A stretch of 64,000 nucleotides of DNA from Linnemannia elongata (taxonomy: Eukaryota; Mortierellomycota; Mortierellomycetes; Mortierellales; Mortierellaceae): NCBI GenBank assembly GCA_036320915.1, contig JAXBDG010000007.1, forward strand, positions 2,710,411 through 2,774,410, in the 5' to 3' direction. The notes below the pieces were generated by a model that searched no databases, was not told the DNA's origin, and saw only the letters and a list, made by a program, of their open reading frames with translations. Positions 49,513-64,000 of this stretch are shown one piece after another. Positions within the stretch are counted from its first letter, which is position 1. Each line of letters opens with the position of its first letter. The position numbers were made by a program, and so were the translations under genes.

Positions 49513-51164
49513 AAGATCCGCAGATAATTATGCAACATCTACGATTATCAATCAATTCAGACCGGCAACTTCCAGAGAGAAAAAAAACTCGCTCCGAGTC
49601 ATCCTGGAGAAGATTGGGGGCGGTCGGCTCAAGGACATTGTCGTGCCCTTTTCAGGGGAGCACTTCTGGTGCTCCTGGAGGGGGGGTGTTGATGGAGATG
49701 AACATTGCATCCACATTTTCAGCGAGGTAAGATCTATCGAAAAAGAAATAAAAGACGTGGTGCGTTCTGTTCGGTATTTTTCCGCCGTCCACCTCTTTGG
49801 TGCAGAAGCGCGCAGCGAGTCTGCATGCCTCTTCCTTCCCACTTGTTAATTTACAATACTATTCCATCTTCTTGTATCTATCCTTGTCCGTCGGCGTTGG
49901 CGCGCTCAGATATACTGAGCAGAAACAACACATTGATAGAAAAGTCAAGGCGTCCATTTCGCGTTTCAACAGAAACAAGTCAGTACTGTCCGCGGAAGCG
50001 TCCAATCCTCATTGATCCCATCATGTCCAAAAAATGTTCCTTGACAGTGTTCACTATTTTGGTATGCACCGTACAAAAAAAGGTAGCAAAATGCTTTTTG
50101 CTTACGCTATCTTCTCGACAACTATATGCCATCACAGCTATATCAGACAACACTAATTCCTCTGCAACTGCAGCAGCCCGCAACGCCTGCGTCTCATCCA
50201 ACACCTCCTCCACATCTCCTCCTCCCCCACGGCCTGTTCTTCTGCTGTTTCTAGGCATGCTTTGCCACCTTGCGCCTATACTTCTTCGACTGCAACCTCA
50301 CCCCTTCGGCGCAGGCGTAGAGGACAAACTTCTCCGAGATGGTCGACTTCTCTCTCAAGGCGACAGTCTTCTAGATCGGCTGCCGACTGTCGACACTGTG
50401 GCAACTGTCGCTTCTGGACCCTGGGTTCATAGGGCTCGGGTTCTTCTTGGGTATAGTAGACGTCTACAACAAGGGGGAATTATCCGCTCTCCATCTCCTG
50501 GTACCTGTCGATCTCCTCGTCGATCATCTGTGCGGACGCTGATGCGGCAGCTGCGACTTTCTCGAACCCGGTGAGGTCAAAGAAATGGTCTGGCGTCGAA
50601 GAGAAGCCCGGTTACGGAATGTGCGTCGTCGCTGATGGAGGCCGTCACAGATCCGCACGTGTATCCTCAAAGCAAAGGTCACGAAGGAGCTTGAGCTCTT
50701 CATAGGTGAACATTGAGAGCAATCTGGCAAAAGGCAGTCCCCAATGCTGCTATAGGAGGACAGACATCTACATCCCTTATATTGTGGCATGAACTGCGTT
50801 GTAGACATGAGCTATTGGGCCTTGTCATAGTACTCGCGTACATGGCAATACTCATATACACTTGTTGGCGAATAGAAGATGCCTGAATTACCACCCCAAT
50901 CTTTCCTCAAACTTTGAAAATCATCTAGGGTCTCAATGGTTGTATTAGTCATGAAATAGCAATGGATGTTGTGAGAATGGGCAAACATAAATGAAGGGGA
51001 ATATTTTGGTACAAGATAGTATCTTTTTAAAAACTGGGCGGCCATCAACCGTCAGCATTCATGCATATAACACGTCAAGCCGTATTGTCATACCATAACT
51101 TTGCCAATCAGGTATGGTGCGGAGATCGTCCTTATCTCTAATACGGTAGGGGATACTAGAGAGG
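49513..51164. other. Decayed sequence with short coding-like fragments
   Basis: Contains only broken frames. The minus-strand fragment 50812-51048 (LDDFQSLRKDWGGNSGIFY in its middle) and the plus-strand fragment near 50023-50574 have plausible composition, but neither was recognised and stops interrupt both. Probably transposon-gene debris. Confidence 0.35.
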
Positions 51165-51290
51165 TGGGTGAAGGTGTATAATTTCAGGCAACTATTAAAA
51201 CCATGGATACAGGAGTTGCAGGTCTTTTATGGATGGGTGTGGTAGGTAAGAGGAGGTGTATAATATGGGTGGTGGTGTAAAGGAGAGCAT
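51165..51290 (+). repeat. Solo remnant of the terminal inverted repeat of the subtelomeric element
   Basis: About 125 bp match the left terminal repeat at 58127-58250 by eye. Shared blocks are GTGTATAAT-TCAGGCAAC, TTAAAA-CATGGATACAGGAG, GGTAAGAGGAGGTG-ATAATA and GGGTGGTGGTGTAAAGGAGA. No element genes flank it, so it is a third, decayed locus of the same family. Confidence 0.75.
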
Positions 51291-51399: not shown

Positions 51400-52050
51400 C
51401 CTAACCAAGTCCACTTCTTGCAGGAGAGCCGCCAACAGATTTCGAAAGAAGGAAGCAATACCATCAGCCTCTTGGAAGTACAAGGCTGTGATGCAGATAA
51501 TCCTTGGACGCACTTCACAAAATACGTGTGCATTGCAGCAAGGTTCATATACATCGCCTCTTTCCGATCACTCTGCAGCCGGTCCAGTGTCTCCTTTCGC
51601 TTGGTCAAGTTCTCTCTCCTATTTTCAGAAACCAAACCGATCCACCTAACCCACTTGGGCATGAGTTTCTGTCGCTTGCCTAGCAGGGTGGCATCCAGGG
51701 TGGGGATGATCGACTGCAGGAGCGATTCCCTCAAGGCTATCAATCGTTGGGCACCAAATGCCTTGTGTAGTCGAGGAGAGCGCGAGCTCTTCTTGATCAA
51801 CAAGGTTGCAGATAGTGCACTAGAAGATTGCATTAGATGGACATTTAGGTACAAAAGCAAGGCTGTTTTCCAACTTTTGCAGCAACTTACAGTGCATTTT
51901 CAGGGTATACATGCTTGTAAACTCAAGGTAACAGTCATTGAAGTATTGAGTGAAGTGTACGCACACGTCGACATCCTCCAACACACAGGAGAATAAATGG
52001 CCCTGCTTGACGCCTATCTCTCCCATTCGCTGATGAGGCAACATTTTTTG
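51400..52050 (-). pseudogene. Fragmented gene of unknown family
   Basis: Two minus-strand fragments in different frames look like one broken gene. The first (52044-51820) includes KQGHLFSCVLEDVDVCVHF and LQKLENSLAFVPKCPSN. The second (about 51810-51400) includes GAQRLIALRESLLQSIIPTL and KWVRWIGLVSENRRENLTKR. Composition is protein-like, helical and basic, with no low complexity. No family was recognised. It lies directly downstream of the broken Fanzor gene on the same strand, so it may belong to the same dead element or be a second cargo gene. Confidence 0.4.
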
Positions 52051-55245: not shown

Positions 55246-55540
55246 CTATGGGTGTTATCCGGATCCAGTACTGAGAGGCTTTGCAAGATGTGTGAGAGCA
55301 TGTTGTGTAGATGGCTATATGTTTTAAAAAGCGGTACCGGGGATGGATGAGTGCAGGATAGGGGGAAGCATACAGTAGCTCTGGGTAAAAGAGGAAGGCT
55401 ATAGGAGGTAGTGCTGCATGAAACACCTCGAGAGGGGGTCGGACCTTTACATGGGTCGATGCCCTCAACCCTCCTTCCATGTAATCCATTGCCGATCTTC
55501 TACGGTATATGGATGATGTACAAGTAAGCAATGACAAATC
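55246..55540 (+). repeat. Left terminal inverted repeat, outer element
   Basis: The reverse complement matches 63179-63475. Shared blocks are GGCAATGGAT, GTTGAGGGCATC, TCATGCAGCAC, CATCCATCCCCGGTACCGC, TTTTTAAAACATAT and CTCTCACACA. Includes TTTTAAAAA near 55322. Confidence 0.8.
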
Positions 55541-55639
55541 TGCGGTAATGGCAGACAAGTGTTGTACGTGATATAAAAAACAAATATGTTAAGCGGTTAC
55601 GTTCTCGAAGAACTTCAAGATTTGTTCAGGTGGCTTATC

Positions 55640-56737
55640 CAAGAGGAGTGGACGCTTTTGGATGATCCCTGGCCAATGTAACTAAAAACGCGTAGGGCAT
55701 ACCGGTCAGAGTTCAAGGTCATTGAAGGTTATGTCCAAGCTGGTGTGGAATAAAGTATACTTCCCCGGTCCATAAAAGGCACCTGAAAAGGGTATTGAAT
55801 TCTTATACTTTTTTGTCGCTGGAGAATCACTGGAGTCCATGTCGATGTTCATGCCCAGGTCATCCTTCTATAAGATTTTCGCACGTTCTTCAAGGAGGAA
55901 AGGAGCCTGTTCAACAAGGAAATGGCAAGGTGCTTCTCAACCATGTTTTCCACCCCAGAGATACGCATGCGATCGGCCAGATGGAGTAACCCAAAGATGT
56001 TCAAGCATGTAACACTGCTGCTGGATGGCCATGACACACGGGCAACCTACGGGGAGTTAAAGTCGGAGATGTACAGCTTTAAGTTCAGGAAGTCAGGCCT
56101 CCGCACACAAGTATGCATAGACGTCAACAACATGGTGGTCTTTGTGTCCAAGTCCGAGTCATGTAAGAAACACAACGATGGTACCATGCTGGTTGACATG
56201 GGTGTGGCCAAAAGGATTCATGAGGTGGACTGCATTGGCCTTGATGGTGGATACCCACAGCATATACCCAAGCTCCTGGAGAAAGAGGACACCCTGGATA
56301 TTCGCAACTTTTGTTTTCCCATACGTAAGCGCAATGGACAGCCCTTGGATGAGGATGAGGCTACCTTTAATACGATGTTCGCAGGATTCAGGTCTATGGT
56401 TGAAAATACCTTTGGTGACCTCGGATCCACCTTTGCCAAGTTCATCCATAAAGACGCCATCCGTACCACCGACAAGAGGGAGGTTAACATGATGTTGCGG
56501 TTGTGCTTTCTGCTGCTAAATGTACGTAATATGTCCAACAACCTCAGCCTGGATATACTACCCCACCATATGGAATGGATCGAGGATGGATTCGACTATC
56601 CAACCACCAATAAGCCTGTCTTGGAGAACTCCGAAGTAGAGACTGTCCAAAATAGGCTACAGAATGGATTTGAACTACAGGAACTCCAGAACGCGTTCTT
56701 GGGAATGGACATGTCGGAGGATGACGAGGAACTGTAG
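55640..56737 (+). pseudogene. DDE transposase of the outer element, N-terminus decayed
   Basis: The catalytic part is open from 55922 to 56737 and closely matches the inner transposase. It has LLLDGHDTRATY (first Asp), CIGLDGGYPQHIPKLL (second Asp) and FAGFRSMVENTFGDLG (Glu). Upstream, 55640-55920 still shows the homologous order EEWTLLDDPWPM, LVWNKVYFPGP and GESLESMSMFMPRSSFYKI, but with stop codons and at least one frameshift. Conservation of amino acids despite many base differences from the inner copy suggests both descend from functional genes. Confidence 0.75.
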
Positions 56738-56767
56738 GGCCTGATTTTTGGAACAGCATGTACCAAG

Positions 56768-56777
56768 TTTTTAAAAA
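56768..56777. promoter_or_regulatory. TTTTTAAAAA palindrome between DDE and Rep-like genes (outer)
   Basis: Ten-base palindrome in the short gap between the two convergent genes of the outer copy. The same motif lies in the equivalent gap of the inner copy. Confidence 0.6.
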
Positions 56778-56789
56778 CCTTACCTTACG

Positions 56790-58080
56790 TTACTCCTGGA
56801 CCAGCTTACACTTCATGTCGTTCGTGCCTTTGGAGCGGACTATGCGTTCTGCAAGGAAGGTCAACTTTGGCACATGGTGGATTCTTACTTGGCCATTCGT
56901 TCCCCTATATTTTCTCCGCCACGTCTCCCACAGGTTACAGAGGGACTTGCCGGCTCTAACTCAGGTCCCACAGTCCATAATTATATGCCAGTATAAAGTC
57001 CCGCGAAACTTTTTTAGGCCTGCTGCTGCAATGGTATATATGTGACCTGGCTCAAGCACATTGTAGCCGGTTCCAAAGGCGGATGAATGTATACTCTGCA
57101 TATGCTTAACATACTGCCCATCATCGGATCTGCGCTCCACAAGGACAGCTAACGGTGCACTCTCCTTGTGGTGTCGCCTCTTTGGCCATCCAATGCGGAT
57201 GTTGTCCACAGATACAATACCCATGTCGGCAAACTTATATACTTCGCGGTCGAACAGTGCGTATGAGGGGAACATACCCTTGGAACCACCTGGTACCAAT
57301 GTTTTGGCCTTGCAGCCTGGCTCTCTCTCATACATCTTCTCCTTGGTGACCTCCACTGTACCATTCTCGCTAACTTTGGCCTCCACATAGTAGATGGGAC
57401 GGTCGTTGAACGAGTAGTTGGCAACCAGGTGCATGGCAAGCGGTGCTGAAACTTTGGACCACATATAACCGTACTTCTTGCGGGTTGTAGAGTTCCACCA
57501 GTGGCAGTATGCAAAGACCTTGCTTCCAGGGATATACACCGCGACCATGGCCTTTATAAGCTCAGCACGTTCTATCCAGTGCTGTTCATAGCTGTAGTCA
57601 AACGTGGTGCAGCCGTCCAAAAGCCTACGCGCATCATCCATCCTATCTTGGTATACCGCCAAAGGGTGCAGACTTGAGCCATAAAAGGTTAGCTCCAGCC
57701 GTGAAAGGCCATGATCCCTATGGCGCAATAGAGTCCTAGTGAACTTCTCATCTGGATTGGCAACTATATCCTCCATCCTTGAGCCGAGACTCTTTCGCAC
57801 ATCCGCGCTTTCGAGCATCTGGACCAGCTTGTTATAGACCTTGCACCTGATATTTTGGGCATTGTCTGCAGATGCAAACCAGGTCACACAGTGGTCACCC
57901 ACCCGTCCGCGATCGTTGACTATCGTTGAAATGCCCTTAGCCTTCAAGTGCCTCTCCAAATAGGTCCGAGTTGATACATACCTGCAGTCATGGGTCATGT
58001 CGATGTCATGCAGGACAAGGTACCGCTTCCGAAGGATAGGCAGGATGACAGCCATGGCCATTACCACCTTTTTGGCACGG
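56790..58080 (-). pseudogene. Rep-like gene of the outer element, 3' part
   Basis: Continues the reading frame of 62824-62413 after the inner element is removed; the junction falls in a Cys-Arg-Ala-Lys-Lys segment. It keeps LVLHDIDMTHDCRYV, GDHCVTWFASADNAQNIR, YNKLVQMLESADVRKS and SRLELTFYGS. A TGA near 56952 truncates it: frame and homology resume beyond (AGKSLCNLWETW, PKLTFLAERIV) up to a TAA at 56792-56790. It is therefore disabled twice, by insertion and by nonsense mutation. The minus-strand frame running to 58118 begins inside the inner element's terminal repeat and is not a real start. Confidence 0.8.
58076..58080 (+). repeat. Target-site duplication CACGG, left copy
   Basis: CACGG immediately precedes the inner element (begins GCAATCGTCC). 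The same five bases follow its right end at 62413-62417. Collapsing them rejoins the interrupted gene in frame. Confidence 0.8.
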
Positions 58081-58429
58081 GCAATCGTCCACATCCCTAA
58101 TACATGAGGAAGCACCATAGGAGTGGTCGATCGTGTATAATATCAGGCAACTTTTAAAAAGCATGGATACAGGAGGCAGAGGATTTGTATAGATGGTAGT
58201 GGTGGGTAAGAGGAGGTGGATAATATGGGTGGTGGTGTAAAGGAGAGGCCAATGGAGGTTTGGGGGGGGTGTAGTTTTCCACTGGCCGATGCTTACACCC
58301 CCCCCTTTGGTCCATTCGAGGTGTATTTGGAGATGTCTCTTGGCTATGCAGTGCAGTCTCTGAGCACCTCCCCTGACATGTATTGGAACCCGCTTTTGCT
58401 GGTATCATAGGCCCATCTTGAATGCTCTG
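58081..58429 (+). repeat. Left terminal inverted repeat, inner element
   Basis: Nearly exact reverse complement of 61809-62157 over about 349 bp; the few differences include the length of a G/C run. Contains a hairpin (stem 58263-58273 with 58294-58304) and TTTTAAAAA at 58152-58160. Confidence 0.92.
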
Positions 58430-58473
58430 CGTTGGCGGGTTGTGGACGTCGCACTGGTAACCAATATATCATC

Positions 58474-58743
58474 ATGCCTGTTTCCCATGAAAAGTCTTTC
58501 CAGCAGGATGTTGTCGCCGAATTTGTAGATGATCATCGTCTTGAGTACTGTATGTTTGTTTACCTCGATGCATTCCTCGATACCCATCACGCTAAGTATC
58601 CTGACCTTGTGGACAGATGGGATCCCTATGCTATGTATGAGATGTTAGAGCAGGTTTACAAAGGTATCCGCCTAGAGCTCCTAAAACGCGGACTTCTTAC
58701 AAATAAGGTAGCTGGTGAGTATGTGATGAAACGATCCCAGTGA
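58474..58743 (+). CDS. Small conserved ORF1 of the inner element (89 aa)
   Basis: Unrecognised small protein. It begins MPVSHEKSFQQDVVAEF and contains YLDAFLDTHHAKYPD, MLEQVYKGIRLELLKRGL and AGEYVMKR. Its homologue in the outer copy (63140-62859) starts MPIPLTHKSLQQDVVAEF and keeps the same blocks, so the ATG at 58474 and the frame are supported by conservation. Mostly helical and acidic in the first half. It lies 45 bp inside the terminal repeat and 52 bp before the Rep-like gene, with TTTTTAAAAA in the gap. It could be a DNA-binding or regulatory partner, but there is no motif evidence. Confidence 0.7.
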   Translation: MPVSHEKSFQQDVVAEFVDDHRLEYCMFVYLDAFLDTHHAKYPDLVDRWDPYAMYEMLEQVYKGIRLELLKRGLLTNKVAGEYVMKRSQ

Positions 58744-58763
58744 GCCATGGTTGGCCTGAGTGG

Positions 58764-58773
58764 TTTTTAAAAA
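58764..58773. promoter_or_regulatory. TTTTTAAAAA palindrome upstream of Rep-like gene (inner)
   Basis: Lies between ORF1 and ORF2, 23 bp before the ORF2 ATG. The outer copy has the same 10-mer at 62844-62853, 20 bp before its ORF2. It may act as a TATA-like promoter element. Confidence 0.6.
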
Positions 58774-58795
58774 TTTGCCCAAACACACTTCAACC

Positions 58796-60487
58796 ATGAC
58801 AAGATCAAACGAGTCCATTATCAACGAGGTTTTTAAGAAGTACACCGGTAATTTGGCTGACTTTGGTAGGCAGTCCTGTTCCCGCAGAGAGAGTAGACAG
58901 GGCTTTGCAAAGTTTTCCAAGATGTTTTGCGACAGCTTGGTTATGTGGGGACTCTACAATACCTTGTCTGAGGACACCAAGGGAGTAACCATTGGGAAGT
59001 ACATGGCAGAGTTGCGTGAGCTTTGTAGTAGGCACTCCTTGCCCTGTGACTCCATTAAGATGGTTACTACGGGTACAAATATCGGCGAGGAGTATTTCTC
59101 AGAGGACATGAAGGAAGCGTACGCCGCAGAGTTTGCTGGACAGTCCCTCCACATGGGGTACATTGCCATTAAGATGTCCCTGAAACAGTGCCGAGCAAAG
59201 AGGGCTGTGTTGGCATTGTCACCCATGCTGGAGACCCTCAGAAGCAAGCATATGGTGCTTCATGACATAGACATGACCCGCGACTGCCGATATGTCACAG
59301 AACGTCGTCTTGTTGAGCAACATCTGTTGCGGAATGGTATCACCAAGGTCATCAAGGACCGTAGTCGTGTGGGTGACCATTGTATCTCCTGGATGGGCAG
59401 TTCAGATGACACCAAGAACATCCGCTACAAGGTCTACAACAAGTTTGTACAGATCCTAGAGAGCGCTGAGGTCCGTAAGAGTCTTGGGTCAAGGATGGAG
59501 GGTCTTGTAGCTGATGATGACGAAAGATTCATGGCAAGGCTGCTTCGCCACAAGGACCATGGGATGTCCCGTCTGGAGCTGACATTCTATGGTAGTACCT
59601 TGTTGTCTTTGGACGAGTACCTGGCCCACTTGGATCATGCAAGGGCCCTGCTGAGCACTTGTCGTGTCTATGACTACAGCTATGAGGAGATGTGGAAAGA
59701 AAGGGCCAACTACATAGAGTCCATGGTCGCAGTGCATATACCTGCCAAGAAGGTCTTTGCCTACTGCCATTGGTGGAACTCGGTGACCTCCAAAAAGTAT
59801 GGATACATGTGGAAGAACGTTGGATCCAAACTTGTTCCCCTGCTGCTGGCCAACTACTCTTTCAACGACAGGCCTATCCATTACATCAAGGTCAAGGTGG
59901 ATGACGCTGGAGTGGTGGAGATTATCAGCGAGAAGGTCTACGAGAGGGAATCTGGATGCACAGCCATGACATTGGTGGCTGGCAAGACCAAAGGCATGTT
60001 TCCCTCTCGAGACACCTGTGAGGGACTTGTCTACGAGTTCTCGGAGGTTGGCATTGTGGAGCATAAGAATATCTCCATTGGATGGCCCGAGAAGAAGCAT
60101 AGCAAGAAGAGCAGGCCATTAGCAGTCCTTGTTGAGAAGCCTACATCCGATAGCCATGAGGGATATGTCCGGTGGATGAAGAAGCCACACTCCACCTTGT
60201 TTACCGCCGATTACAACATCCTTGTCCCAGGCACAGAATATACCGTTGTTGCCGCAGGGTTGGCTGATTTCCGGGGAAACAGCTACTGGCATTTGGTCAC
60301 CGAATGTGGCCTCAAGGTCAAGGCTGGAAAGTCCCTTGAAGGCATCTGGGAACGATGGAGAGGCCAATACAGAGGAAACCATGGCGGGGTTCTCATCCAC
60401 AACATCCCCAAGATGAGGTTTTTGGCAGAGAGAAAGGTTAAAATCAGAGGTATGTCTGTCGTGAAGTGCGTCTTGGTGAGGACATAG
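58796..60487 (+). CDS. Large ORF2 of the inner element, possible Rep-like initiator (563 aa)
   Basis: Family not recognised with certainty. The start MTRSNESIINEVFKK is supported by the outer homologue (MSRSKEAIINEILNK). Conserved features: LHDIDMTRDCRY with Asp157, Asp159 and Asp163; RVGDHCISW; IRYKVYNKF with Tyr214 and Lys216; SRLELTFYGS with Arg259 and Glu261; FAYCHWWNS; later FNDRPIHYI and IGWPEKKHSKKSRPLAVLVE. The order D-x-D-x3-D, Y-x-K, R-x-E is reminiscent of Rep_trans-type rolling-circle initiators and MobT relaxases. No clear HUH pair is seen, so this is only a hypothesis. A C-terminal domain (AGKSLEGIWERWRG, MRFLAERKVKI) is basic. It is convergent with the transposase, 76 bp apart. 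Confidence 0.7.
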   Translation: MTRSNESIINEVFKKYTGNLADFGRQSCSRRESRQGFAKFSKMFCDSLVMWGLYNTLSEDTKGVTIGKYMAELRELCSRHSLPCDSIKMVTTGTNIGEEYFSEDMKEAYAAEFAGQSLHMGYIAIKMSLKQCRAKRAVLALSPMLETLRSKHMVLHDIDMTRDCRYVTERRLVEQHLLRNGITKVIKDRSRVGDHCISWMGSSDDTKNIRYKVYNKFVQILESAEVRKSLGSRMEGLVADDDERFMARLLRHKDHGMSRLELTFYGSTLLSLDEYLAHLDHARALLSTCRVYDYSYEEMWKERANYIESMVAVHIPAKKVFAYCHWWNSVTSKKYGYMWKNVGSKLVPLLLANYSFNDRPIHYIKVKVDDAGVVEIISEKVYERESGCTAMTLVAGKTKGMFPSRDTCEGLVYEFSEVGIVEHKNISIGWPEKKHSKKSRPLAVLVEKPTSDSHEGYVRWMKKPHSTLFTADYNILVPGTEYTVVAAGLADFRGNSYWHLVTECGLKVKAGKSLEGIWERWRGQYRGNHGGVLIHNIPKMRFLAERKVKIRGMSVVKCVLVRT

Positions 60488-60508
60488 GTGGTGGTAGCGT
60501 GGCATAGG

Positions 60509-60557
60509 TTTTTAAAAACTTGGACGTAGGTCGTAGCATGGCACAGGTTTTTAAAAA
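60509..60557. promoter_or_regulatory. Tandem TTTTTAAAAA units between convergent ORF2 and transposase genes
   Basis: Two copies of a 39-bp unit (GTAGC(G/A)TGGCA(T/C)AGG then TTTTTAAAAACTTGG). The palindromes are at 60509-60518 and 60548-60557. They sit in the 76-bp gap between two convergent stop codons, where a promoter is unlikely. Confidence 0.7.
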
Positions 60558-60563
60558 CTTGGC

Positions 60564-61805
60564 TCAGATCATCTCATCCTCATCTGACAGATCCATCCCA
60601 AGGAATTCTTCCTGTAGTCGCAACAGCTCTGCACCGCTCTCCAGCCTGTTTTGCACCGTGGCTACCTGGGACTGCACCAAGACAGACTGCTTACGTGGAT
60701 AGTCAAACCCATCCTCTGCCCATGCCATATGGTGGGGTTGTACCTCAAGGTTAAGAGCATTGGACATATTACGGACATTCATCAGCAGGAAACATAGCCG
60801 CATCATCATGTTAACCTCCTTCTTGTCTGTAGTACGTATGGACTCCTTGTTGTTGAACTTTCTAAATGTACGCCCAAGATCCCCAAATGTGGCCTCGATC
60901 ATGGACCTGAAGCCAGCGAACTCGGAGTTAAATAAGGCCTCATGCTCGTCCAAGTCCTGTCCCGGTTTCTTGCGGATAGGGAAGCAAAAGTTCCTTACAT
61001 CCAGAGAGTCCTCACGTTCAAGCAGGGTAGGGATATGCTGTGTATATCCGCCATCAACACCTACACAGTCCATCTCATGGATCTTGTTTGCAAGGCCCAT
61101 TTCTACCATCATGCTGCCGTCGTTGTTGTCTTTACATGGAGCGGACTTGGAGACAAAGAGTACCATGTGGTTGATGTCTATGCACACCTGGGTCCTGAGG
61201 CCAGACTTCTTAAGCTTGTATGAGTACATCTTGGCCTTGGTTTCGCGATATGTTGCCCGGGTATCATGACCATCCAGCAGCAGGGTAATATGCCTGAACA
61301 TCCGTGGGTTAGTCCATACGGCAGACCTCATGCGGATTTCAGGCGTGGAAAACATGTTGGCAAAACATCTCGTCATCTCCTTCTCAAACAGCCTCTTCTC
61401 GGTCTTGAAGAAAGTTCTGTAGATCTCATAGAAGCTAGACCTGGGCAAGAACACAGACATAGCCTCCATAGAATCGCCTGAAACAAGATAGTACAGGAGG
61501 GCGATACCTTTCTCCACTGCTTTGTATGGACCTGGGAAATACACCTTGTTCCAAAGGGTTGTGAGAAAGAAGAACACACCAATGGCTCCTATCTTGCCTA
61601 TGACCTCCTCCTTCATGTGGTGCATGTTGTTAATTGGCTTGAGCTCGGATCGGTGGAACTTTCTGGTGGTAGGGTACAATGGCCATGGATTGTCAAGAAA
61701 ACCCCACTCCTCCGCGAGTATTGCATTCAAGCAGGCGTTGAGCTTCTTTGGGATTTTGGGCTCGGACATTGGGTATGTTGAAGGAAGGACTCCACAACCC
61801 GCCAT
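60564..61805 (-). CDS. DDE transposase (HARBI1 / DDE_4-like) of the inner element (413 aa)
   Basis: RNase-H-fold transposase. Residues 85-135 (LWNKVYF, IALLYYLVSGDSMEAMSVFL, SSFYEIYRTFF) look like the helix-turn-helix preceding a DDE_4 core. Catalytic triad by alignment: Asp178 (LLLDGHDTRA), Asp251 (CVGVDGGYTQHIP) and Glu304 (GFRSMIEATFGDLG, the RxxxExxFG pattern). A C-terminal helical region ends DLSDEDEMI. The first ATG (61805) abuts the edge of the right terminal repeat; an alternative is 61769 (MSEPKIPKK). The outer copy has the same core at 55922-56737. It likely catalyses excision and integration; the target duplication seen here is 5 bp. Confidence 0.85.
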   Translation of the reverse strand: MAGCGVLPSTYPMSEPKIPKKLNACLNAILAEEWGFLDNPWPLYPTTRKFHRSELKPINNMHHMKEEVIGKIGAIGVFFFLTTLWNKVYFPGPYKAVEKGIALLYYLVSGDSMEAMSVFLPRSSFYEIYRTFFKTEKRLFEKEMTRCFANMFSTPEIRMRSAVWTNPRMFRHITLLLDGHDTRATYRETKAKMYSYKLKKSGLRTQVCIDINHMVLFVSKSAPCKDNNDGSMMVEMGLANKIHEMDCVGVDGGYTQHIPTLLEREDSLDVRNFCFPIRKKPGQDLDEHEALFNSEFAGFRSMIEATFGDLGRTFRKFNNKESIRTTDKKEVNMMMRLCFLLMNVRNMSNALNLEVQPHHMAWAEDGFDYPRKQSVLVQSQVATVQNRLESGAELLRLQEEFLGMDLSDEDEMI

Positions 61806-61808
61806 ACC

Positions 61809-62157
61809 CAGAGCATTCAAGATGGGCCTATGATACTAGCAAAAGCGGGTTCCAATACATGTCAGGGGAGGTGCTCAGAGACTGCACTGCATAGCCAAGA
61901 GACATCTCCAAATACACCTCGAATGGACCAAAGGGGGGGTGTAAGCATCGGCCAGTGGAAAACTACACCCCCCCCAAACCTCCATTGGCCTCTCCTTTAC
62001 ACCACCACCCATATTATCCACCTCCTCTTACCCACCACTACCATCTATACAAATCCTCTGCCTCCTGTATCCATGCTTTTTAAAAGTTGCCTGATATTAT
62101 ACACGATCGACCACTCCTATGGTGCTTCCTCATGTATTAGGGATGTGGACGATTGCC
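61809..62157 (-). repeat. Right terminal inverted repeat, inner element (proximal copy)
   Basis: Reverse complement of 58080-58429. Carries hairpin stem 61933-61943 / 61964-61974 with a 20-nt loop holding GCATCGGCCAG. Its outermost bases GGACGATTGCC match the left end. Confidence 0.92.
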
Positions 62158-62186
62158 TAGGTGGGGGTTATAGGTGGAATCTCTCA

Positions 62187-62412
62187 AGGGGGGGTGTGCG
62201 CCCTCGGCCAGTGGAAAACTACACCCCCCCCAAACCTCCATTGGCCTCTCCTTTACACCACCACCCATATTATCCACCTCCTCTTACCCACCACTACCAT
62301 CTATACAAATCCTCTGCCTCCTGTATCCATGCTTTTTAAAAGTTGCCTGATATTATACACGATCGACCACTCCTATGGTGCTTCCTCATGTATTAGGGAT
62401 GTGGACGATTGC
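62187..62412 (-). repeat. Right terminal inverted repeat, inner element (distal partial duplicate)
   Basis: Near-identical to 61931-62157, separated from it by about 30 bp. Its outer end abuts the CACGG target duplication, so this copy is the functional terminus. Confidence 0.9.
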
Positions 62413-62417
62413 CACGG
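62413..62417 (+). repeat. Target-site duplication CACGG, right copy
   Basis: Pairs with 58076-58080 around the inner element. Confidence 0.8.
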
Positions 62418-62824
62418 CAGTGGTATAGAGACACCTTGATAGAGACAAATCCGGCAGAGTATGGTCCATTGCTGTGCTCTTGTGCATGTGCGGTTTGGAT
62501 GTCAGCAGGGATATACTCTTCGTCCAACAGAGTGCCACTATGCAGCGACTTGATGGAATCGTAAGGTGGATCCGCCTTGCCAAATGCCTCACGTAAGTCA
62601 GCCATATATTTGCCAATGGACTTGCCCTTGACCTTTTCATCGGCATAGTTGACCGGAGCCCAAAAGACCATACTGTCACAGAACATCTTGGAGAACCGTG
62701 TGAACCCCTTGCGTTTGGTAGCTCCAAGACGACCAAGGGGATGTACACATTTGCCAACGTCGGCAAGGTTGTGTGTGCACTTATTGAGGATCTCGTTGAT
62801 GATAGCTTCCTTTGACCGTGACAT
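62413..62824 (-). pseudogene. Rep-like gene of the outer element, 5' part
   Basis: Starts MSRSKEAIINEILNKCTHNL and matches the first ~130 residues of the inner ORF2 (KGFTRFSKMFCDSMVFW, GKSIGKYMADLRE, DSIKSLHSGTLLDEEY). It is cut at the inner element junction after a Cys-Arg, and the rest of the gene continues at 58080 downward. The few codons read beyond 62413 come from the inserted element. Confidence 0.8.
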
Positions 62825-62843
62825 GTTGTTAATAGATTCTTGC

Positions 62844-62853
62844 TTTTTAAAAA
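62844..62853. promoter_or_regulatory. TTTTTAAAAA palindrome upstream of Rep-like gene (outer)
   Basis: In the 34-bp gap between the ORF1 stop (62859) and ORF2 ATG (62824) of the outer copy, at the position equivalent to 58764-58773 in the inner copy. Confidence 0.6.
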
Positions 62854-62858
62854 CTCCC

Positions 62859-63140
62859 TTAGGTGGCCTTCAACTCAGTGCGCATAAGGTACTCACCAGC
62901 AGCTTCGTTGGTCAACAGTCCTTTCTCAGAGAGTTCACGTCGGATACCCTTGTATACCTTTTCCAACATCGAGTAGATAGTATGTGGACACCAGGTTTCA
63001 CCAAAGTCAGGAGATTTAGCGCGGTGAATATCCACGAATGCATCAAGGTACACATACATACAGGTCTCTAAGCGATGGTCCGTAATAAATTCAGCGACGA
63101 CATCCTGTTGCAAAGATTTATGTGTAAGCGGAATAGGCAT
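62859..63140 (-). CDS. Small conserved ORF1 of the outer element (93 aa)
   Basis: Open frame homologous to 58474-58743: shared QQDVVAEF, DHRLE, YLDAF-D-H-AK, MLEKVYKGIRREL and GLLTNEAAGEY. The start lies 39 bp inside the terminal repeat. It is probably not functional, because its partner genes are broken, but the frame is intact. Unknown function. Confidence 0.6.
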   Translation of the reverse strand: MPIPLTHKSLQQDVVAEFITDHRLETCMYVYLDAFVDIHRAKSPDFGETWCPHTIYSMLEKVYKGIRRELSEKGLLTNEAAGEYLMRTELKAT

Positions 63141-63178
63141 TGTTGTTTTCTTTGGGGCACCTTGTCTACCATACCGCC

Positions 63179-63475
63179 GATTTGTCATTCGTTACCTTTA
63201 CATCATGCATATACCGTAGGTCATCGGCAATGGATAACACCAAAGGGGGGTTGAGGGCATCAGCCAGAGTAAAGCTACAACCCCCCCTTCGAGGTCTTTC
63301 ATGCAGCACAACCTCCCAGAGCCTACTTCTTTTACCTAGAACTACTGTACGCTCCCCTCTATCCTAAACTCATCCATCCCCGGTACCGCCTTTTTAAAAC
63401 ATATGGTAATCTATGCAGCATACTCTCACACACCTTGAAGCGCCTATCTATACTAGTCCCGGATGACTCCCTTAG
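63179..63475 (-). repeat. Right terminal inverted repeat, outer element
   Basis: Pairs with 55246-55540. It has a hairpin (stem 63245-63253 GGGGGGTTG with 63278-63286 CAACCCCCC) and TTTTTAAAA near 63393. It ends ...GGATGACTCCCTTAG. Confidence 0.8.
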
Positions 63476-63603
63476 GAAACAGATTAATTATCACATGTTC
63501 AAAAGTTGGAAAACACCTTGTCATTTGCATAACGTTGTCGACACTCTTTGAGAATTGTAATGCATAATTCAGAACTTCAGGGTTTTTTCTGCTTTTGAGG
63601 ACC

Positions 63604-64000
63604 TTTTAGGGTTTTTTAAGGTTTTTTAGGGTTTTTAGGGTTTTTTAGGGTTTTTTAGGGTTTTTTTTAGGGTTTTTTTAGGGTTTTTTAGGGTTTTTTA
63701 GGGTTTTTTAGGGTTTTTTAGGGTTTTTTTAGGGTTTTTTAGGGTTTTTTTAGGGTTTTTTTAGGGTTTTTTAGGGTTTTTTAGGGTTTTTTAGGGTTTT
63801 TTAGGGTTTTTTTAGGGTTTTTTAGGGTTTTTTAGGGTTTTTTAGGGTTTTTTAGGGTTTTTTAGGGTTTTTTAGGGTTTTTTAGGGTTTTTTAGGGTTT
63901 TTTAGGGTTTTTTAGGGTTTTTTAGGGTTTTTTAGGGTTTTTTAGGGTTTTTTAGGGTTTTTTTAGGGTTTTTTAGGGTTTTTTAGGGTTTTTTAGGTTT
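63604..64000 (+). repeat. Telomere-like array, unit mainly TTTTTTAGGG
   Basis: About 396 bp of head-to-tail units, mostly ten bases (T6AGGG), mixed with T5 and T7-T8 variants. The G-rich strand runs 5'-3' toward the window end, the orientation of a right chromosome end. The array starts with degenerate units (TTTTAGGG, TTTTTTAAGG) and then becomes regular, as at a subtelomere-telomere junction. The window stops inside the array. Confidence 0.88.

Follow-up and report, generated by a model that had tools for sequence, protein, structure and literature searches.

The window considered here is a stretch of 64,000 nucleotides from the fungus Linnemannia elongata (genome 51.1 Mb), and it forms the terminal stretch of a 2,774,410-bp contig (C30). 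Towards the contig end lies an intact DNA transposon of 4,334 bp (58080-62413), assigned to family A and nested inside an older sister element of like plan (family B). The three-gene plan that an earlier note had proposed for this DNA was borne out, as all three genes and the long inverted repeats were located in the window. A small open reading frame (ORF) of 89 amino acids (58474-58743, + strand) is conserved in families A, B, C, and E. ORF2 (58796-60487, +) encodes 563 amino acids, comprising a predicted Rep_trans-like tyrosine nickase (residues ~38-292) and a C-terminal half, and is convergent with an ORF for a DDE transposase of 413 amino acids (60564-61805, −). The left terminal inverted repeat (58080-58446, +) is ~367 bp long and has the outer end GGCAATCG. 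Its counterpart, the inner unit on the right (61791-62157, −), is 98.9% identical to it, and 228 bp of the repeats are perfect. At the right end of the element the terminal repeat is tandemly duplicated, the additional outer unit of 256 bp (62158-62413, −) being made of half a repeat and a linker.

The ends of the element had previously been placed at 58081 and 62412, each one base short. Family-A ends were found to read GGCAATCG, with a single exception on contig C15 (GGTAATCG), and this sets the true ends at 58080 and 62413. Because the element ends sit one base further out, the target-site duplication is 3 bp (ACG, at 58077-58079 and 62414-62416 by empty-site comparison) and not 5 bp as had been claimed. 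A 5-bp duplication of the form CNNNG is compatible with the family-A copies in the window, on C32 and on C17; however, it is excluded by the copy on C31 (TCT) and by B copies (AAT, AAT, and TTA). The C31 copy is flanked by TCT and its empty site in locus L048 reads T-TCT-A, therefore the outer G and C are part of the element. Moreover, the unoccupied site GGCACGGCAG, with a single ACG, was found in all seven B loci compared. Equal 3-bp flanks were seen in 7 of 18 A or B copies (ACG, CTT, TCT, CTA, AAT, AAT, and TTA; p = 6e-9 at 1/64 each). This count covers hand-listed copies with both outermost ends, so that copies with a single end or with inner tandem ends only were excluded, as was a family-C copy on C7 whose outermost right end lies beyond the sequence reached.

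The DDE ORF matches PF13359 (DDE_Tnp_4) in Pfam with an E-value of 7.6e-13. Its catalytic triad, assigned by motif as D178, D251, and E304, is invariant in 14 of 14 aligned DDE sequences. A DDE_Tnp_4-type transposase with such a triad and a 3-bp duplication are both features of PIF/Harbinger elements, and the 2-bp duplication of ISL2EU was not found. The designation of the element as a new class was therefore overstated as far as the transposase is concerned, and it is best called a PIF/Harbinger-like DDE transposon with a predicted Rep_trans-like nickase. Many remoter DDE relatives in the data (e.g., P0131, P0171, and P0190) bear a chromodomain (PF00385), which suggests another way of target choice.

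The nature of ORF2 was approached through its predicted structure. An AlphaFold2 model was built from 61 sequences, namely the query and 60 of its 86 homologs (fragments and near-copies excluded), and reached a pLDDT of 92.9 and a pTM of 0.80. When the full model was compared with the PDB by Foldseek, the first of 959 matches, and the only one below 1e-3, was 4cwe, a Rep_trans rolling-circle initiator (E 7.5e-4). With residues 36-295 alone, 4cwe again ranked first (E 2.6e-4, probability 0.97), chains of 4cij occupied ranks 7, 8, 11, and 12, and the first TBP appeared at rank 15. A search of BFVD gave nine matches below 1e-3, which include three Inoviridae proteins, two named replication proteins. 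On the predicted models, ORF2 has the TBP-like two-lobed catalytic fold of Rep_trans enzymes; TBP itself has the same fold, as is also stated in excerpts of a study of archaeal relatives (PMC13107129).

The active site of Rep_trans enzymes has been described for RepDE and RepSTK1 as an Asp (motif N'), RxDxAxD (motif I), T/SxY/ExG (motif II), RxYxKxxE/Q (motif III), and RxE (motif IV) (PMC4797284, in part), and the motifs are given likewise in excerpts of two further papers (PMC6499999; PMC5714925). The counterparts in ORF2 are D46, DxDx(A/T)xD at 157-163, KxYxKxxQ at 212-219, and RxE at 259-261. D46, D159, D163, K212, Y214, K216, Q219, R259, and E261 are conserved in 60-61 of the 61 ORF2 sequences, and position 161 is Ala or Thr in 55. 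In the model, motifs N', I, and IV each lie on a strand and motif III spans a strand and a helix, an arrangement that matches RepSTK1; motif III reads VRFYEKNVQ in RepSTK1 and YKVYNKFVQ in ORF2. Y214 (codon 59435-59437, +; Tyr in 61/61) is the predicted nucleophile. The metal is predicted to be held by D46 (58931-58933, +; Asp in 61/61), D159 (59270-59272, +; 60/61), and E261 (59576-59578, +; Glu in 61/61). The modeled site thus offers three acidic ligands, a Tyr on a strand, a Lys two residues on, and the RxE. The hallmarks of HUH Reps, a catalytic Tyr on a helix and the HUH metal site, were not seen, Y214 being placed on strand 209-215 of the model; nor did ORF2 match the HUH families Rep_1 and Rep_2 in Pfam. 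An ordered pattern of these residues, composed after the sequences had been seen, is present in 52 of 61 ORF2s and 9 of 11 bacterial or phage Rep_trans proteins, compared with 0/14 and 0/120 DDE sequences and 2 of 100,000 shuffles.

The description of ORF2 as Rep-like thus gained the backing of predicted structure and active-site conservation, of the Rep_trans kind, but of no sequence-level search. ORF2 lies below the PF02486 cut-off, a PF02486 search of its own genome was also negative, and Rep_trans was not among the families listed. When 72,556 plasmid records and 50,697 phage records were searched with ORF2 by tblastn, the outcome was negative, and an IMG/VR scan returned ten pattern matches, none of which was confirmed. 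Since sequence and profile searches fail, ORF2 is regarded as Rep_trans-like through its predicted fold and active site and not as a Pfam member. Scattered weak matches of ORF2 to ThiC, DUF5741, and the like were taken as chance. The view that the known partners of PIF/Harbinger and ISL2EU transposases differ from ORF2 held up: neither ORF2 nor the small ORF has a Myb/SANT match in Pfam, no such family is among the 25 listed for the 61 ORF2s, and the YqaJ nuclease was matched by ORF2 neither in Pfam nor among those families.

Seventeen of the 86 ORF2 homologs are named, all in six genera, which we take to be the Mortierella-like fungal group close to Linnemannia. The best named ones are from L. 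elongata, with up to 85-86% identity across 84% of the query. Judged indirectly, by an equal length of the longest contig, twelve ORF2 homologs appear to share a contig with a DDE homolog (11 contigs; 58 of 86 ORF2 homologs compared with 38 of 120 listed DDE homologs). In the C-E pair, the sole one whose synonymous sites are unsaturated in each of the three genes, dN/dS is 0.18 for ORF2, 0.15 for the DDE gene, and 0.085 for the small ORF; over six pairs the pN/pS of ORF2 is 0.30-0.43. The claim that all three proteins are needed is consistent with this purifying selection on all three, but it has to be set against the sister DDE family D (nine matches), whose DDE is 50% identical to that of family A. 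Its DDE loci on C32, C16, and C27 (L076, L167, and L168) are 97-98% alike, and family D loci carry a 105-amino-acid CxxC ORF and a Cys/His-rich acidic ORF of 493 or 637 amino acids. L076 starts with the tail of a neighboring ORF2 piece and finishes in an end of the family-C type, hairpin included, and L167 and L168 have neither ORF2 nor hairpin. From this it follows that hairpin and ORF2 co-occur, in a small sample, and that a DDE of this kind can live with other partners.

Hairpins within the terminal repeats, like the location near a chromosome end, were absent from the earlier note. In the window, the left hairpin (58262-58305, +) has the arms G8TGTA and TACAC8 and the loop GGCCGA/T, with a predicted nick at 58289/58290. 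The right inner hairpin (61933-61975, −) has its predicted nick at 61947/61948, and the right outer one (62188-62231, −), with a different 3' arm, has its divergence point at 62203/62204. The hairpin, a G-run facing a C-run, begins 183 bp from the tip in family A, 185 bp in B, and 225 bp in C. Its arms are GGGGGGGTGTA/TACACCCCCCC in family A and GGGGGGTTG/CAACCCCCC in family B; those of C are similar, a related string is found in E, and the common loop sequence is AGYTTY...GGCYGA. Outside the genes, the sole BLAST match between the A element and the B element of the window is a 49-bp stretch that holds the hairpin.

Tandem end units are common, measuring 256-259 bp in A and B and 393 bp in C. 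Inner and outer units of all three families are alike up to GGCYGA (100% identity in A to 91% in C) and different beyond it. In the window, the direct repeats have their first bases at 61948 and 62204, right after this point. Of 34 distinct hairpin strings found by pattern match in the loci examined, 21 continue after GGCYGA with T, nine with G, and four with A, where T marks the inner type and G or A the outer type. Rep_trans plasmids are nicked within such a hairpin loop (PMC4797284, in part), and this is the ground for placing the putative nick in the loop. The word GGCYGATG alone is not rare (six in the window against 4.1 expected), therefore the case rests on its position. At the start of C10 (L039) and the end of C15 (L067), contigs stop in long C/G homopolymers within the G-run that belongs to the hairpin of a family-A end, and these are likely assembly breaks at the hairpin structure.

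Taken together, we consider it fairly probable that the element is a PIF/Harbinger-like DDE transposon that has long inverted repeats, makes a 3-bp duplication, and encodes in ORF2 a predicted Rep_trans-type tyrosine nickase, which likely cuts the hairpin loops of the repeats. The DDE enzyme would cut out and insert the element with a 3-bp staggered cut, and ORF2 would nick the hairpin loop after GGCYGA to leave a 3'-OH. We infer that this end could prime synthesis that runs into the element by strand displacement, whether the element stays in place or has been excised as a circle, and that such a replicative stage would raise copy number. Strand exchange between two such nicks would give rise to the tandem end units.

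A number of observations weigh against this reading. ORF2 has no sequence match to Rep_trans in Pfam, NCBIfam, PHROGs, or PDB, and profile-profile alignment by hhalign with 11 Rep_trans proteins gave a probability of 0.2-0.3%. In the full-model Foldseek search, aspartokinase domains ranked 2-3 and the TBP 1mp9 (ranks 4-5) stood above 4cij (rank 9). Low TM-scores (0.16-0.38) were obtained for ORF2 against Rep_trans, and VIA Z-scores do not separate Rep_trans (6.7 and 7.3) from TBP (8.2 and 7.5), the VIA alignments being equally unable to separate Rep_trans from ribosomal protein S6-like folds. Motif II is not conserved in ORF2, the Arg of motif I is replaced by Asp in 60 of 61 ORF2s, and nine of the 61 lack the ordered pattern. 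The stability of the hairpins is moderate (z -1.7 to -2.5, vs -0.3 for a control stretch). Eleven of the 18 copies are without equal 3-bp flanks, which recombination between copies would explain. Finally, none of the three family D loci inspected (L076, L167, and L168) contains an ORF2 belonging to that family.

The window element was inserted within ORF2 of its family-B host, whose two parts are 92.6% and 96.9% identical to an intact B copy elsewhere. The left part (55250-58079) contains a degenerate DDE gene with stops and the 3' part of ORF2; the right part (62414-63471) contains the 5' part of ORF2, a small ORF (62859-63188, −), and a terminal repeat ending GGATGACTCCC. What had been described as a second diverged copy with the identical plan does share that plan, but it is this B-family host, split by the insertion. 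The three-ORF plan is common to four families (A, B, C, and E), with open-frame copies in B, C, and E. Family B is, in most copies, 68-69% identical to A in the DDE and 55-56% in ORF2, and the DDEs of C and E are 57-58% identical to that of A. At 51125-51287 the window also holds a fragment 79% identical to the family-A terminal repeat, with GGCTGATG at 51462, probably an old remnant.

About 110-150 bp beyond the end of the host element the first telomere-like repeats begin, and the contig closes with a telomere repeat, mostly (TTTTTTAGGG)n (63600-64000, +). This 10-mer, in which the number of T varies, is found at 18 further contig ends. It is known from the plant Cestrum, and 'Mortierell' is not mentioned in the main texts of two papers on that repeat. 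Separately, one 60-base sequence closes four contigs (the right ends of C1, C17, and C20 and, as reverse complement, the left end of C18) and is perhaps a shared repeat array. The genome contains at least 80 ORF2 and at least 101 transposase matches, lower bounds in which fragments are counted. The telomere repeat is present at 19 of 64 contig ends, and elements lie within 40 kb at 15 of these 19, with no listed element at the telomere-bearing ends C3 left, C8 right, C9 right, and C31 right. Fifty-seven of 80 ORF2 matches are at most 40 kb from telomere-bearing ends, a region that makes up 1.5% of the genome; for near-full-length matches, in rows picked by hand, the figure is 25 of 34. These copies are not independent events, since they are nested and blocks are common to several ends. 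Interior copies are found on C1, C12, C17, and C28. The interior arrays at C12:1820865-1849470 and C1:4478210-4494786 lie deep in long contigs, possibly because former chromosome ends have fused or because contigs were joined in assembly. The crowding suggests a preference for chromosome ends, which may stem from targeting or from tolerance.

How far this crowding reflects insertion depends on the exchange of subtelomeric blocks between ends, which could have produced it in place of repeated insertion. This is a real possibility, though we tend to doubt it: the same flanks do recur at different contig ends and equal flanks are missing in 11 copies, yet there are separate insertion sites with their own duplications, and the interior copies on C1, C28, and C17 show true transposition. 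Exchange has also to be considered for the tandem end units, which could have arisen by unequal exchange or adjacent insertion with no nick involved, the divergence point in the loop merely marking the end of the functional repeat. Unit numbers of 1-3 per end are expected of unequal exchange, the linkers are not alike between families, and the boundary could stay alike by selection or gene conversion. However, the boundary falls on the same hairpin-loop base in three families, A and the B element of the window are similar outside the genes in the 49-bp hairpin stretch only, and units retain from 100% (A) to 91% (C) identity before it, so that a nick-free origin seems rather unlikely.

Two other explanations concern the role of ORF2. 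It could be a non-enzymatic TBP-fold protein that directs the DDE transposase by attaching to the terminal hairpins or to chromatin near telomeres; however, D46, D159, Y214, K216, and E261, which a binder would not need, are conserved in 60-61 of 61 sequences, and for the domain alone Foldseek puts Rep_trans above TBP, which makes such a role unlikely. Alternatively, the element could be an ordinary PIF/Harbinger-like transposon and ORF2 a captured passenger gene with no part in movement. A derivative of ~950 bp on C17 has moved, perhaps in trans, with the duplication CTA and no ORF2 match, and the family D loci inspected lack an ORF2 belonging to that family. Nevertheless, the ORF2 frame is open and conserved across four families, its named homologs come from six genera, and the hairpin occurs in ends of the families that bear ORF2 and is lacking in two D loci, all of which render the passenger explanation quite improbable.

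Compared with known systems, the element resembles PIF/Harbinger transposons in its DDE_Tnp_4 transposase, inverted repeats, 3-bp duplication, and second conserved protein. It differs from them in that the second protein is a predicted nickase, with no Myb/SANT match in ORF2 or the small ORF, and in its ~367-bp repeats with internal hairpins and duplications of ACG, CTT, TCT, CTA, AAT, and TTA. ISL2EU elements combine a DDE transposase with a YqaJ nuclease and make a 2-bp duplication. The pairing of a DDE transposase with a second, here predicted, nuclease-type protein is alike; the YqaJ match is missing and the duplication is 3 bp. Helitrons encode a helicase with a fused HUH Rep and have no inverted repeats and no target duplication. 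Like them, the present element would be a transposon of eukaryotes that encodes an initiator of the rolling-circle type; unlike them, it has inverted repeats and a target duplication, and ORF2 has no Helitron-type Pfam match. With the Rep_trans initiators (the pT181 family, RepSTK1, and Inoviridae RstA, together with MOBT relaxases) ORF2 shares the predicted fold, most catalytic residues and their order, and a hairpin with a putative loop cut. In contrast to these, it stays under all sequence thresholds, has Asp for Arg in motif I and no motif II, is longer, and is encoded in a eukaryotic host beside a DDE transposase. A precedent is Rep-Arvir, archaeal Rep_trans relatives of viruses and plasmids that, according to excerpts of the report, were recognized by fold and active site and then tested by mutation (PMC13107129). 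ORF2 was likewise recognized by fold and active-site residues and is associated with a putative hairpin origin, and the BFVD matches A0A345MNV4 and A0A2N9QVX7 are common to both; the SNJ2 tyrosine lies in KHYYM (PMC13107129, in part), whereas the KxYxKxxQ of ORF2 is nearer to RepSTK1.

A bolder proposal, which we hold to be almost evenly balanced with a slight leaning towards doubt, is that this is a class of eukaryotic transposon with two DNA-cutting chemistries, in which a DDE enzyme inserts the element and a Rep_trans-derived nickase, firing from hairpin origins in both repeats, amplifies it. Its niche would be the chromosome ends, and with ORF2 the TBP-fold rolling-circle initiators would gain their first eukaryotic branch. 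No such element was found among the matches listed from the open-access literature, subscription papers and Repbase lying outside the scope of that search. Rep_trans enzymes are apparently restricted to bacteria, with archaeal relatives added in 2026, as far as excerpts of that report tell (PMC13107129). If confirmed, ORF2 would probably be the first of its kind among eukaryotes, and the group would span all three domains. Since the substrate is defined, namely the loop with its predicted cut after GGCYGA, the idea lends itself to direct testing in vitro. If true, DDE cut-and-paste and tyrosine nick-and-displace, long separate, would be brought together in a single small element of a eukaryote, which would also offer a natural case of DNA transposons colonizing chromosome ends.

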